From the NCBI GenBank assembly GCA_937980645.1, contig CALJPQ010000025.1:1-64000 (forward strand): a DNA stretch of 64,000 nt. The letters are read 5' to 3'. The DNA comes from an uncultured Saprospiraceae bacterium (GTDB lineage Bacteria > Bacteroidota > Bacteroidia > Chitinophagales > Saprospiraceae). The position numbers and the translations under genes are program-made. The notes under the pieces are model-generated. The model ran no database searches, was not told the DNA's origin, and saw nothing but the letters and a program-made list of their open reading frames with translations. This document shows positions 11,085 to 33,324 of the stretch, piece after piece (position 1 is the stretch's first letter; every line of letters begins with the position of its first letter).

Positions 11085-11480
11085 ATGGAACTGACCATTC
11101 AAACCCCGGCCCTGCTCTTCCCAGCCGTATCGCTGCTGATGCTGGCCTACACGAACAAGTTTCTGGCCATCGCCAACCTCATCCGGAAACTGTACTCCGA
11201 CTACGAGCGTAATCAGCACATCAGCCTGATCGCCCAAATCTCCAACCTGAGGCGCCGACTCCAGCTCATCCGATGGATGCAGGTCTTCGCCGTGGCCAGC
11301 ATCCTGCTGTGCGTCGTTACCATGTTCCTCATCTATGAGGGCTTCCAGGTCTGGGCCAAAATCCTGTTCGCCATCAGTCTGGTACTCATGATAGTCTCTC
11401 TGGTGCTCAGCCTGATGGAACTCTTCCTCTCCGCCGGCGCACTGCGGCTCCTACTACGCGACCTGGAGGAAAAGATGTAG
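11085..11480 (+). CDS. DUF2721 family membrane protein
   Basis: Small integral membrane protein (131 residues) of unknown function. Hydrophobic segments are at about 7-24, 66-87 and 91-118. A polar, basic stretch (about 25-62, with RKLYSDYERNQ and SNLRRRLQLIRW) is characteristic of DUF2721 proteins. It follows the tRNA terminator closely, so its promoter is unclear; read-through from the tRNA promoter is possible. It converges on the ATPase-nuclease gene, with repeat locus 2 in between. Confidence 0.75.
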   Translation: MELTIQTPALLFPAVSLLMLAYTNKFLAIANLIRKLYSDYERNQHISLIAQISNLRRRLQLIRWMQVFAVASILLCVVTMFLIYEGFQVWAKILFAISLVLMIVSLVLSLMELFLSAGALRLLLRDLEEKM

Positions 11481-11516
11481 CATCAGCAATGCCTCGAGGT
11501 GACACCTCCCCTCGGG

Positions 11517-11649
11517 AAAGGTACGGCTTTTCAGACGGCCCCGCCCGAGGTGTCGTCTTCGAGGTACGAGAAGGCGACATCTCGAATGATAAACAACAGA
11601 GGCGACATAAACAACAGAGACAACACCTCCCTTCGGGAGATGTCGCCTC
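11517..11649. repeat. Palindromic intergenic repeat, locus 2 (left copy of the 78-bp direct repeat)
   Basis: Bases 11517-11594 are identical over 78 bases and in the same orientation to 13190-13267. The copy contains one hairpin (arms about 11546-11560 and 11570-11584). A second hairpin, AGAGACAACACCTCCC with its imperfect complement, follows at 11616-11649, ending 4 bases before the ATPase stop codon. A partial arm is also visible at about 11494-11515. Together with locus 3 it brackets the ATPase-nuclease gene. Confidence 0.92.
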
Positions 11650-11653
11650 GGCC

Positions 11654-13171
11654 TCACCACTTCTCCTCGTCGTACTCCACCAAATACGTCCGTACCTCCA
11701 CACCCTCAATGACCTCCACACCCTCCCGCACACTCGCCGGATAGCGCACGTTGTTCGGACAAAAAACCAAATACACCCCCACGCGCTGACCCAAACTCCG
11801 ACAGTAGTACGCCAACTGCTCTCGACCCTCCAAAAACTGACGCTCGTAGTAATAGATCTTCGTCTCAATCAAATACTCCTCGCCCCTCACGTTGATAATC
11901 AAATCGCTGCGCCCCAAACCCGTATGCGCCTCTCGGTAACTCTTGCCTCCCACCGCCTGTAAAAACGCCTGAATGTACGTCTCAAAACTGTACACCAAGG
12001 CGCTCTCCTTGATGGATACGTAACGACCCTGGGCGTCCTTCTCCCGAAAGGCACTGAAGCCGCGGCGCTTCACATAAGCCTTGTAGCCCGCTATCAGACT
12101 GTCCAACTTCAGTTTACCCTCCGCATCCAGCAACTCACTCAAGGCCAGACTGCGCAAAATGCCCTCCTTCTCGCCGTTGGTGTACGGGTAAAAGGCATCG
12201 TACAGCCGCTTTTTGTAAAACGGCACCCAAAACGTTACATAGCCTTCACCGTCGTCCTTAATCAGCCCGTTCGTATGCAGCAACTTGATGGCCGGACGGT
12301 CTATGGCAAACGGAATTTTGTCTTCGGTGAACAGCAGGCGCTCCACAAACGCTCGTTCCTCGCGAGCCTTGTTCAGAATGTTCTCGAAGTTCTTGTCTAT
12401 CGAAAGGCGGGTGTACCAATCCTCAACCACCAAATACTGCTCCATCGTCAGTGGCGATACGGCGGCATAGCGCGTTACCAACTGGCGGGCAAAGCCGTTG
12501 ACCAAACCCGGCTGGCCCGCCGTAATGCGGTAAATGGCCCGCTTCACCGCCTCGTCGAACCTCTGGCCCGTCTCCGACTCGTGCTGGCCCAGCAACTCGA
12601 ACACCTCCGCTTCGGTGAAATAGGGCAACTCCAAATTGTCCGCAATGTTGAACGGCGAAGCGTTGTCGCTCACCACGTTCAAAATGTTCGTTACGCCCAC
12701 CAGTATAACACTCTTCAGGGCGTGCCGCTGGCGCGAGTGGTACAGGTTGCGAATGCTGTGTAAAAATTGGTTGAACAACTTCGGGTTCAGCCCTTCTACC
12801 TCATCTATGATGAGCACCAACTTGCCCTGCTGAAGTTGCAAGAAGAACTGCTGCCAGCCCTGGAAGGACGTGAACACCTTTAGTTTCATCCCCCATTGTT
12901 GAGCCGCTTCTATCTGGAAATAAGACATCAACGAACGCAAGGAGGCATCACGGTAGTTCTCCAGGTTAATGTGCATCACCTGGTATCCTCTGGGCTTCAG
13001 ATGCTCAGCAAGTTGAAGAAAATACGTGCTCTTGCCCGTCTGGCGCGGCGCCCAGATGGTGAAATAGCGCTCCTGCTCCACCATGCGCAAGCCCTCTGCT
13101 ATTTGTGGCCGCCGCTCGATGGTGTAGTGTCGCTCTGGGATGTTCGGGCCCGATGTGTTGAACTCTCGCAT
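11654..13171 (-). CDS. AAA-family ATPase with C-terminal PD-(D/E)XK nuclease-like domain
   Basis: 505 residues, unknown physiological role. N-terminal P-loop ATPase: Walker A APRQTGKST (41-49) and Walker B LVLIIDEVEG (118-127). A likely sensor region ILVGVTNI lies near 165 and a winged-helix-like middle at about 200-340. The C-terminal region has a PD-(D/E)XK core: GRSDLII (Asp423), then YLIETKI (Glu437, Lys439), then REQLAYY (Gln452). The architecture matches the AAA-like plus PDDEXK_9 ATPases that are multiplied in many Bacteroidota genomes. The ATG at 13171 is chosen because the frame further upstream only translates repeat DNA. The gene lies between perfect 78-bp direct repeats, and its -7 box is formed at the edge of the right copy. 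Confidence 0.85.
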   Translation of the reverse strand: MREFNTSGPNIPERHYTIERRPQIAEGLRMVEQERYFTIWAPRQTGKSTYFLQLAEHLKPRGYQVMHINLENYRDASLRSLMSYFQIEAAQQWGMKLKVFTSFQGWQQFFLQLQQGKLVLIIDEVEGLNPKLFNQFLHSIRNLYHSRQRHALKSVILVGVTNILNVVSDNASPFNIADNLELPYFTEAEVFELLGQHESETGQRFDEAVKRAIYRITAGQPGLVNGFARQLVTRYAAVSPLTMEQYLVVEDWYTRLSIDKNFENILNKAREERAFVERLLFTEDKIPFAIDRPAIKLLHTNGLIKDDGEGYVTFWVPFYKKRLYDAFYPYTNGEKEGILRSLALSELLDAEGKLKLDSLIAGYKAYVKRRGFSAFREKDAQGRYVSIKESALVYSFETYIQAFLQAVGGKSYREAHTGLGRSDLIINVRGEEYLIETKIYYYERQFLEGREQLAYYCRSLGQRVGVYLVFCPNNVRYPASVREGVEVIEGVEVRTYLVEYDEEKW

Positions 13172-13188
13172 GGCCTTTCCTTTGCGGC

Positions 13189-13196
13189 CAAAGGTA
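13189..13196 (-). promoter_or_regulatory. -7 promoter box (TACCTTTG) at the edge of the direct repeat, upstream of the ATPase-nuclease
   Basis: Exact TAnnTTTG match on the minus strand, 17 bases before the ATG. Seven of its eight bases are the first bases of the 78-bp repeat. The left repeat copy has one mismatch here (TACCTTTC). Confidence 0.5.
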
Positions 13197-13351
13197 CGGC
13201 TTTTCAGACGGCCCCGCCCGAGGTGTCGTCTTCGAGGTACGAGAAGGCGACATCTCGAATGATAAACGGCAGAGACAACACCTCCCTGTGGGAGATGTCG
13301 CCTCGCACCTAAACGGCAGAGACAATACCTCCCTGTGGGGGATGTCGCCTC
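13190..13351. repeat. Palindromic intergenic repeat, locus 3 (right copy of the 78-bp direct repeat plus two hairpins)
   Basis: 13190-13267 is the perfect second copy of the 78-bp repeat. Two tandem hairpins follow (13271-13304 and 13318-13351), each AGAGACAACACCTCCC-like against GGGAGATGTCGCCTC-like. The outer end of the last hairpin overlaps the stop codon of yraN (13350-13352). Confidence 0.92.
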
Positions 13352-13712
13352 AAAAAAACGCATCTTCGGCGTGTCGGATGGCCTTCAGCTGGCCGCGGAC
13401 GAGCAAGACGGAGATGATGTCGAAGCGGATTTGGCCTTCGTATCCAATGGTTTCCATGAAGGCGCCGGCGGTTCGGGCTATTTGCTCTTGTTTTTTACGG
13501 TTGACGGCTTCTTCGGGGCCGCCGAAGCCATCGAGCGAGCGGGTTTTGACCTCGACGAAGACTAAGCAGCCCTCCGGCGACCAGGCGATGATGTCTAATT
13601 CGCCCATGCCTGCGCGGAAGTTGCGCCGGGCGATGCGGTAGCCCTTTTCTTCTAAATAGTGGGCGGCTATGTCTTCGCCTTTGCGGCCGAGGTCGAGGTT
13701 TTCCATACTCAT
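13350..13712 (-). CDS. yraN: YraN family (UPF0102) putative endonuclease
   Basis: Small Holliday-junction-resolvase-like protein, 120 residues, function unproven. It has the PD-(D/E)XK pattern of the family: GELDII (Asp40), VFVEVKTR (Glu54, Lys56), and the N-terminal LGRKGEDIAAHYLEEKGY. ATG 13712 overlaps the stop of the upstream gene in an ATGA, which supports this start and translational coupling. Its stop codon falls within the last hairpin of repeat locus 3. It is the last gene of a porU operon. Confidence 0.88.
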   Translation of the reverse strand: MSMENLDLGRKGEDIAAHYLEEKGYRIARRNFRAGMGELDIIAWSPEGCLVFVEVKTRSLDGFGGPEEAVNRKKQEQIARTAGAFMETIGYEGQIRFDIISVLLVRGQLKAIRHAEDAFF

Positions 13713-33182: not shown

Positions 33183-33324
33183 GAGGCGACACCTACTGGC
33201 GGAGATGTCGCCTCACGTGAGGTGTCGTTTTCGGGACACGAAAAGGCGACACCTCTAAAACATAGCACAAGGACACAAAGGGCTTTTTTTAGAGACAACA
33301 CCTCCTGACGGAGATGTCGCCTCT
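33183..33324. repeat. Palindromic intergenic repeat, locus 4 (three hairpins)
   Basis: Hairpins at 33183-33214 (GAGGCGACACCT/AGATGTCGCCTC), 33219-33255 (GAGGTGTCGTTTTC with GAAAAGGCGACACCTC) and 33291-33324 (AGAGACAACACCTCC with GGAGATGTCGCCTCT). The arms match loci 1-3. Located directly after glmM and before the formate dehydrogenase genes. Confidence 0.88.

Follow-up and report, generated by a model that had tools for sequence, protein, structure and literature searches.

The two perfect 78-bp direct repeats that bracket a single ATPase-nuclease gene in the analyzed stretch of DNA (64,000 nucleotides, hereafter the window) probably represent the 5' end of this gene, doubled by an old tandem duplication, after which the second gene was lost. 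This reading builds on the parts of the locus and their order, a joint in the middle of a hairpin, hairpins of the same types dispersed over the genome, a patchy identity of the paralogous genes and rearranged neighbors. As a whole, the locus is most likely a product of ordinary repeat-driven gene turnover in a genome rich in small hairpin repeats. A gene placed between perfect repeats is recast in this way as a testable history, a tandem duplication via extragenic hairpins followed by loss. The analysis also draws attention to the AAA_35-nuclease family, which is multi-copy, recombines between its copies in the genome of the window and is found at rearrangement junctions.

The 78-bp repeat and its hairpins

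The two copies of the repeat are 100% identical, have the same orientation and are offset by 1,673 bp from start to start, with one gene between them, as the earlier note had described; the gene is on the minus strand. The copies constitute the only exact direct repeat of at least 20 nt in the window (the maximum in 20 shuffles was 17 nt); Tandem Repeats Finder with periods up to 500 found nothing. The similarity is embedded in a larger hairpin array, 13190-13351 and 11496-11650. The repeat was not made as a bracket for the gene: its 78 bp are composed of a 30-bp part of the gene's leader, a 37-bp palindrome (type A) and a tail of 11 bp. Read along the gene strand, the 5' part of the locus has the order B, B, A, leader, gene, B being a second type of palindrome, and the 3' part has the order B, A, leader stub, half B (Table 1).

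Table 1. Features of the ATPase-nuclease locus, in coordinates of the window
Feature	Position	Strand	Basis or remark
78-bp repeat, upstream copy	13190..13267	+	leader part, A palindrome, tail
78-bp repeat, downstream copy	11517..11594	+	exact match to the upstream copy
Predicted ATPase-nuclease gene, 505 aa (AAA_35 ATPase, putative C-terminal PD-(D/E)XK-like site)	11654..13171	-	profile match, family alignment, model
Leader of the ATPase gene, 48 bp, contains TACCTTTG	13172..13219	-	core common to paralogues in two species
Type-A palindrome, upstream, 37 nt	13220..13256	+	covariance model
Type-B palindrome, upstream, 33 nt	13272..13304	-	covariance model
Second type-B palindrome, upstream	13319..13351	-	covariance model
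Type-B palindrome, downstream	11617..11649	-	begins 4 nt past the stop codon
Type-A palindrome, downstream, start of the putative ghost copy	11547..11583	+	covariance model
Leader stub of the putative ghost copy, ends at TACCTTT	11517..11546	-	leader comparison
Second half of a type-B palindrome, fused directly to the stub	11496..11516	-	18/21 to the best B
yraN-like gene (presumed name)	13350..13709	-	in G019 and G002 adjoins a gyrB/parE-like gene (presumed name) instead
Small membrane protein gene, DUF2721-like (presumed name)	11085..11480	+	in G019 adjoins a 381-aa gene instead

The mechanically defined open reading frame encodes 569 aa and starts with an ATG at 13363. The true start of the gene is probably at 13171 (505 aa), since it is from this position that the family alignment and the conserved leader extend. 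The leader element TACCTTTG is one that we take to resemble the -7 element of Bacteroidota. The leader core GTACCTTTGnCCGCAAAGG lies upstream of the window gene (C25), of its paralogue C20 and of the copies C47, C50, and C29 of the congener G019; the core reads GTACCTTTAGCCGCAAAGG in the leader of the C26 pseudogene, and only GTACCTTTGG is retained in the leader of G019 C111. No type-A palindrome was found upstream of the C26 pseudogene, G019 C47 and G019 C50. Because the core precedes paralogues in two species, some of them without the A palindrome, the 30-bp leader part of the repeat belongs to the gene and not to the hairpin.

Type-A palindromes (37 nt, 96.9% of cells paired) and type-B palindromes (33 nt, 94.1%) were searched for with covariance models built from hairpins of the same genome, which gave 70 A matches (strands not merged) and 85 B matches, the latter corresponding to 68 places after the strands were merged by hand. 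Only 6 of 48 A and B midpoints fell inside ORFs of at least 200 aa, compared to 79% of all positions in the same stretches, which had been selected for containing 78-mer matches or ATPase pieces; three of these six lie in the false N-terminal extension of the window ATPase ORF. At several of the loci examined A and B form pairs of alternating orientation, and the arms of A recur in B in swapped order, as circular permutations. By their sequence and placement, A and B are to be regarded as dispersed REP/BIME-like extragenic elements, which were not made for the ATPase gene. Further clusters of A/B hairpins occur in the window at 683-784 and 33183-33323. Covariation is weak as evidence of RNA function: each hairpin has three pairs with two-sided change, and the covariation score was matched by 30 of 500 shuffles for A and by 116 of 500 for B. 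A known RNA element as the identity of the repeat was rejected, the RNA search of the window having returned only two tRNAs.

The abundance of these elements raises the question of chance. With about 138 A/B matches (70 A and 68 B) in 3.94 Mb, flanking hairpins are expected for some gene, and the two could have been inserted independently on either side of it as ordinary REP elements. We consider this extremely improbable, as the identity extends 30 bp into the leader, outside the dispersed element: the 78-mer search of the genome gave 41 matches, 38 of which lack its first 15 bp, and these 15 bp are covered only by the two window copies and by the copy preceding the paralogue C20 (19607-21121).

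The downstream stub and its probable origin

The downstream side of the locus contains A, leader and half B, and the coding region is absent. Past TACCTTT the leader stub continues as CCCGAGGGGAGGTGTCACCTC, which is half of a B hairpin; its 18/21 identity to the best B was reached by none of 20,000 random 21-mers taken from seven stretches of the same genome. In the paralogue C20 the parts are arranged alike, B-A-leader-gene-B. The following history would account for this. The unit B-A-leader-gene, about 1.66 kb long, would have been duplicated in tandem, probably by recombination or template switching between direct type-B hairpins 1,655 bp apart, the distance at which the downstream B lies in direct orientation relative to the upstream B. 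A deletion would then have removed the second copy between a point inside its leader and the middle of the type-B hairpin at its own 3' end, and the remnant, A-leader-half-B, would be what occupies 11496-11583. A tandem second unit from which the segment between the leader and the middle of B is removed gives exactly the observed stub. The order of these events and the role of the B hairpins as crossover sites are what we infer. REP sequences as junctions have a precedent in E. coli, where they are reported for 22 of 90 sequenced novel junctions (PMC3161906). The duplication was not perfectly clean: the two copies have unequal B-to-A spacers, with an extra 18 bp in the downstream one. Neither the two-gene stage nor an empty site with one repeat was seen among the genomes covered, one per species.

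It is rather unlikely, though conceivable, that a one-step local event, slippage or a template switch between hairpins, copied only A and the leader to the 3' side of the gene. Such an explanation needs a single event instead of two, and hairpins are dense at the ATPase locus; besides, 14 of the 22 REP-located junctions of E. coli are reported to be too short for homologous recombination (PMC3161906). However, the stub stops precisely halfway through a B hairpin, as predicted if a second copy that had its own B at the 3' side was lost, whereas slippage would require an adjacent B by chance. Returning to duplication with subsequent loss, the deletion of the remaining gene by recombination between the 78-bp repeats, proposed in the earlier note, is plausible.

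Family copies, paralogue exchange and neighboring genes

The genome of the window harbors two intact copies of the family, one pseudogene and one C-terminal piece. The pseudogene (C26, L015 3306-3867) has an internal deletion and retains its leader together with parts of its two ends. Congener G019, the only other genome with close ATPase copies among the 60 searched, has 10 family matches, among which three are full-length (55-81% identity) and one is a piece at a contig end (77% identity). More than one family gene is present in 19 of 80 related loci: 13 of them are arrays of Ca. Omnitrophus magneticus, four (L147, L151, L181, and L224) are tandem pairs, in L207 the genes have opposite orientation, and in L182 the second piece lies further off. 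Locus L151, from a metagenome assembly, has the order leader-gene-leader-gene with gene copies of 99.3% identity, and its leader forms a 19-nt direct repeat across the first gene; by analogy, it shows what the undamaged counterpart of the tandem state supposed for the window may look like. In L147 (3492-6575) the ORFs of two neighboring ATPase-nuclease genes are 100% identical throughout, while their leaders, spacers and flanks are unrelated, which would be due either to ORF-bounded gene conversion or to an assembly effect, the assembly being a metagenomic one. The two copies in L224 are 88% identical, and in L181 blastn finds no DNA similarity between the tandem genes. The arrays of Ca. Omnitrophus magneticus SKK-01 (L194, L199, L213-L223) occupy 13 contigs with three to four full or partial tandem copies among the matches listed and have a period of about 1.6 kb; this assembly is described as faulty (PMC10066038). 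The copy numbers in the two genomes bear out the statement of the earlier note that the family is multiplied, and its idea of local amplification agrees with the putative tandem remnant downstream of the gene and with the intact tandem copies in other genomes.

No phage match of the family was found. Plasmid carriage is represented by 15 records, the best among the eight listed being the homologue on the Haliscomenobacter hydrossis plasmid pHALHY03 (NC_015513.1 39493-41010, L229; 58.5% identical), and such a plasmid-borne copy is a possible route between species. Titles and opening parts of abstracts among the matches listed for AAA_35 (PF14516) contain nothing on tandem copies of the family, which does not prove absence from print.

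The two intact copies of the studied genome, C25 and C20, differ unevenly along their length. Pairwise identity in 75-column windows ranges from 46% to 98%; codons for the same amino acid are identical in 250 of 375 cases, with a run of identical codons at aa 459-483 (a run as long occurred in 40 of 5,000 permutations) and a between-window spread of synonymous identity that was reached in none of 2,000 permutations. Judging by both tests, these two paralogues have exchanged sequence, a signal established for the C25-C20 pair only. Among five pairs with G019 copies, three gave no exchange signal, including the within-genome pair G019 C47-C50. Against G019 C50 a milder spread was seen (reached in 72 of 2,000 permutations for C25 and in 129 of 2,000 for C20) and the long run was absent (536 and 1,161 of 5,000, respectively). 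Taken together, there is a hint that the ATPase family recombines often.

The neighborhoods of the copies have changed as well. The window has the gene order yraN - ATPase - DUF2721, and the two genes that adjoin its outer members in congeners, the gyrB/parE-like and the 381-aa ones, are direct neighbors on contig 10 of the same genome (88740-90632 and 90964-92109). In G011 the blocks RND-DUF2721 and yraN are located on one contig in the other relative orientation and with neither neighbor pair, which means that this region has undergone more than one rearrangement within the genus. The reciprocal junction on contig 10 was checked for traces of an ATPase gene or a hairpin and showed none, a result that argues against the ATPase having been the site of exchange at this place. 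As for the other copies, whose neighbors we presume to be a symporter, an ABC transporter and an amidohydrolase (RND above is likewise a presumed name), contig 47 of G019 has the order symporter - ATPase - ABC transporter, and in the genome of the window the symporter is found next to the ATPase of C20, the ABC transporter next to the pseudogene of C26. The other neighbor of C26, a gene of 430 aa about 1 kb away, adjoins in G002 the amidohydrolase, and the amidohydrolase is the other neighbor of the C20 ATPase; in G019 and G011 the 1.5 kb that follow the amidohydrolase showed no 430-aa gene. Such a swap of neighbors between C20 and C26 would be expected after a crossover between two ATPase copies, with the reservation that fragmentary assemblies are involved. 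Both intact copies, C20 and C25, stand at junctions rearranged relative to the congeners.

Hairpins, the predicted nuclease and known systems

Search with the A model in 31 genomes of the genus, including that of the window (stricter filters, 136 candidates scored per genome), revealed eight with at least 16 matches: the studied genome, G006, G007, G009, G014, G016, G022, and G023. Only the first of them has close ATPase copies; G009 contains weak pieces with 25% and 42% identity. Conversely, G019, with its several close ATPase copies, gave no A matches, and 85 kb of it searched without filters yielded nothing above 16.7 bits for A. The distribution of type A over the genus thus does not follow that of close ATPase copies, and the action of the ATPase on the hairpins that the earlier note had suggested is not demonstrated; as a mobilizer of the hairpins the ATPase was rejected, because A-rich genomes mostly have no close ATPase and ATPase-rich G019 has no A. 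In some congeners the A palindromes form inverted doublets of about 110-215 bp (G006 C32/C393, L068 and L069; G023 C335/C326, L064 and L065; G014 C111/C534, L071 and L070), some of which are enclosed by an outer palindrome in a REPIN-like manner, and in G014 C534 the A palindrome is repeated in tandem with a period of about 65 bp.

Type B was abundant among 50 genomes only in that of the window (85 matches), G011 and G025 having one each. The 85 kb of G019, which cover its yraN locus and four ATPase loci, contain a degraded B-like hairpin (25.1 bits, E 0.0034) some 52 bp upstream of the start of an ATPase copy. A second match there (19.8 bits) is about 7 kb away from an ATPase copy, and a further 300 kb of G019 gave one match, of 15.6 bits. 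In unchanged register, the 3' flank of G019 C47 agrees with the B arm at 11 of 15 positions (at least 11 occur at 73 of 599,580 background positions), and only 8 are shared in G019 C50 and in the H. hydrossis plasmid copy. These traces are a weak sign that the ATPase may act on the type-B hairpin.

The hairpin of 25.1 bits, set beside the single match in the further 300 kb, would also suit a transposable cassette composed of the hairpins and the ATPase gene, in which the repeats are the ends and the nuclease moves the whole, as do two further facts: both intact copies of the studied genome carry B on either side in direct orientation, and intact copies in this genome and G019 mostly adjoin different genes (C20 and G019 C47 share one neighbor). 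This explanation is nevertheless very unlikely. The Pfam profile search found no transposase domain in the window protein; DNA similarity of the paralogues in other genomes stops near the ends of the ORFs; the occurrence of type A does not match that of close ATPase copies. Moreover, an exact direct repeat of at least 20 nt across the gene is present in only 1 of 34 family loci, the window itself (the 34 comprise five loci of the studied genome and G019 and 29 of the 80 related ones; five have one flank under 500 bp). The earlier note named family members without the repeats as one part of what would speak against its proposal, and the absence of such repeats from 33 loci leaves of its cassette the local amplification, with the movement unsupported; the repeat pair is not evidence for a mobile cassette.

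The protein itself matches AAA_35 (PF14516) with 59.9 bits (cut-off 27). Residues G46, D123, and E124 of the ATPase motifs are invariant in all 46 aligned sequences and K47 is nearly so; E414, D423, E436, K438, and Q452 are likewise invariant (46/46). In the model of all 505 residues (mean pLDDT 86.4, pTM 0.82) D423 is located just ahead of the strand 424-428, E436 and K438 lie in the strand 431-439, and residues 415-420 are poorly modeled. On the grounds of this conservation and the model, a C-terminal PD-(D/E)XK-like nuclease site is predicted. The label of a defense system was rejected: the PADLOC matches are weak and fall on the ATPase part (best two E 0.00096-0.00097, 15.9-16.1 bits), and the best NCBIfam match has 12.3 bits at a cut-off of 790.

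The predicted nuclease allows a more far-reaching reading, to which we give little credence. The AAA_35-PD-(D/E)XK family might spread and homogenize by stimulating recombination at its own copies, in a homing-like manner without intron or intein, the nuclease promoting gene conversion, tandem amplification and exchange of flanks, possibly with the type-B hairpin as a partner in cis. We counted in its favor the uneven synonymous identity of C25 and C20 in both tests, the L147 copies identical over the ORF with unrelated flanks, the position of both intact copies at rearranged junctions and the abundance of B, among the 50 genomes, only in that of the window, with its best trace in the 385 kb of G019 searched without filters lying some 52 bp ahead of an ATPase copy. 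The remnant-free junction on contig 10 was counted against it, and so was the pair G019 C47-C50, the lack of an exchange signal in which reduces its odds. If it is true that the nuclease drives exchange, this would be a possible reason for unexplained ATPase-nuclease expansions in Bacteroidota and beyond.

Among known systems, the best solved folds for residues ~1-325 are those of the archaeal AAA+ ATPases PABY2304 (2qen; Z 18.4, rmsd 3.2, 296 residues aligned) and SSO1545 (2fna; Z 16.5, rmsd 3.9, 293 aligned), and the list also includes ORC/Cdc6 and NLR-type proteins. However, the identity to the archaeal proteins is only 14%, and the alignment does not reach the C-terminal nuclease part; the search for solved relatives by sequence gave one match, with E 0.61. 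The DUF1703 proteins (PF09820 and PF08011) of Cardinium cCpun share with the window protein the architecture of an ATPase with PD-(D/E)XK and the large number of paralogues, and these families are reported to expand, with intragenic recombination between paralogues (PMC6387759). In contrast to them, the window protein has no PF09820 match at E up to 1, and its PF08011 (PDDEXK_9) score of 12.8 bits is below the cut-off of 25.5.

As to the hairpins, A and B resemble REP and BIME elements in being imperfect palindromes of 20-40 nt, present in high copy, extragenic and paired in alternating orientation; REPs are also described as inverted doublets and tandem clusters (PMC3116915). A difference is that none of the aligned sequences (25 of A and 18 of B) has a GTAG tag at an end. 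RAYT-driven REPs were rejected, as no PF01797 match exists in the genome of the window (40 contigs, in which a gap is possible). All seven other congeners with at least 16 A matches have PF01797, and so do at least 10 congeners without A matches; none of 20 PF01797 loci, a subset of all such matches (four from A-rich genomes, ~1.5 kb per side), contained an A hairpin. REPs tagged with CGTC are reported to have no dedicated transposase (PMC3733652); type A carries CGTC too, but within its arm and not at the end.
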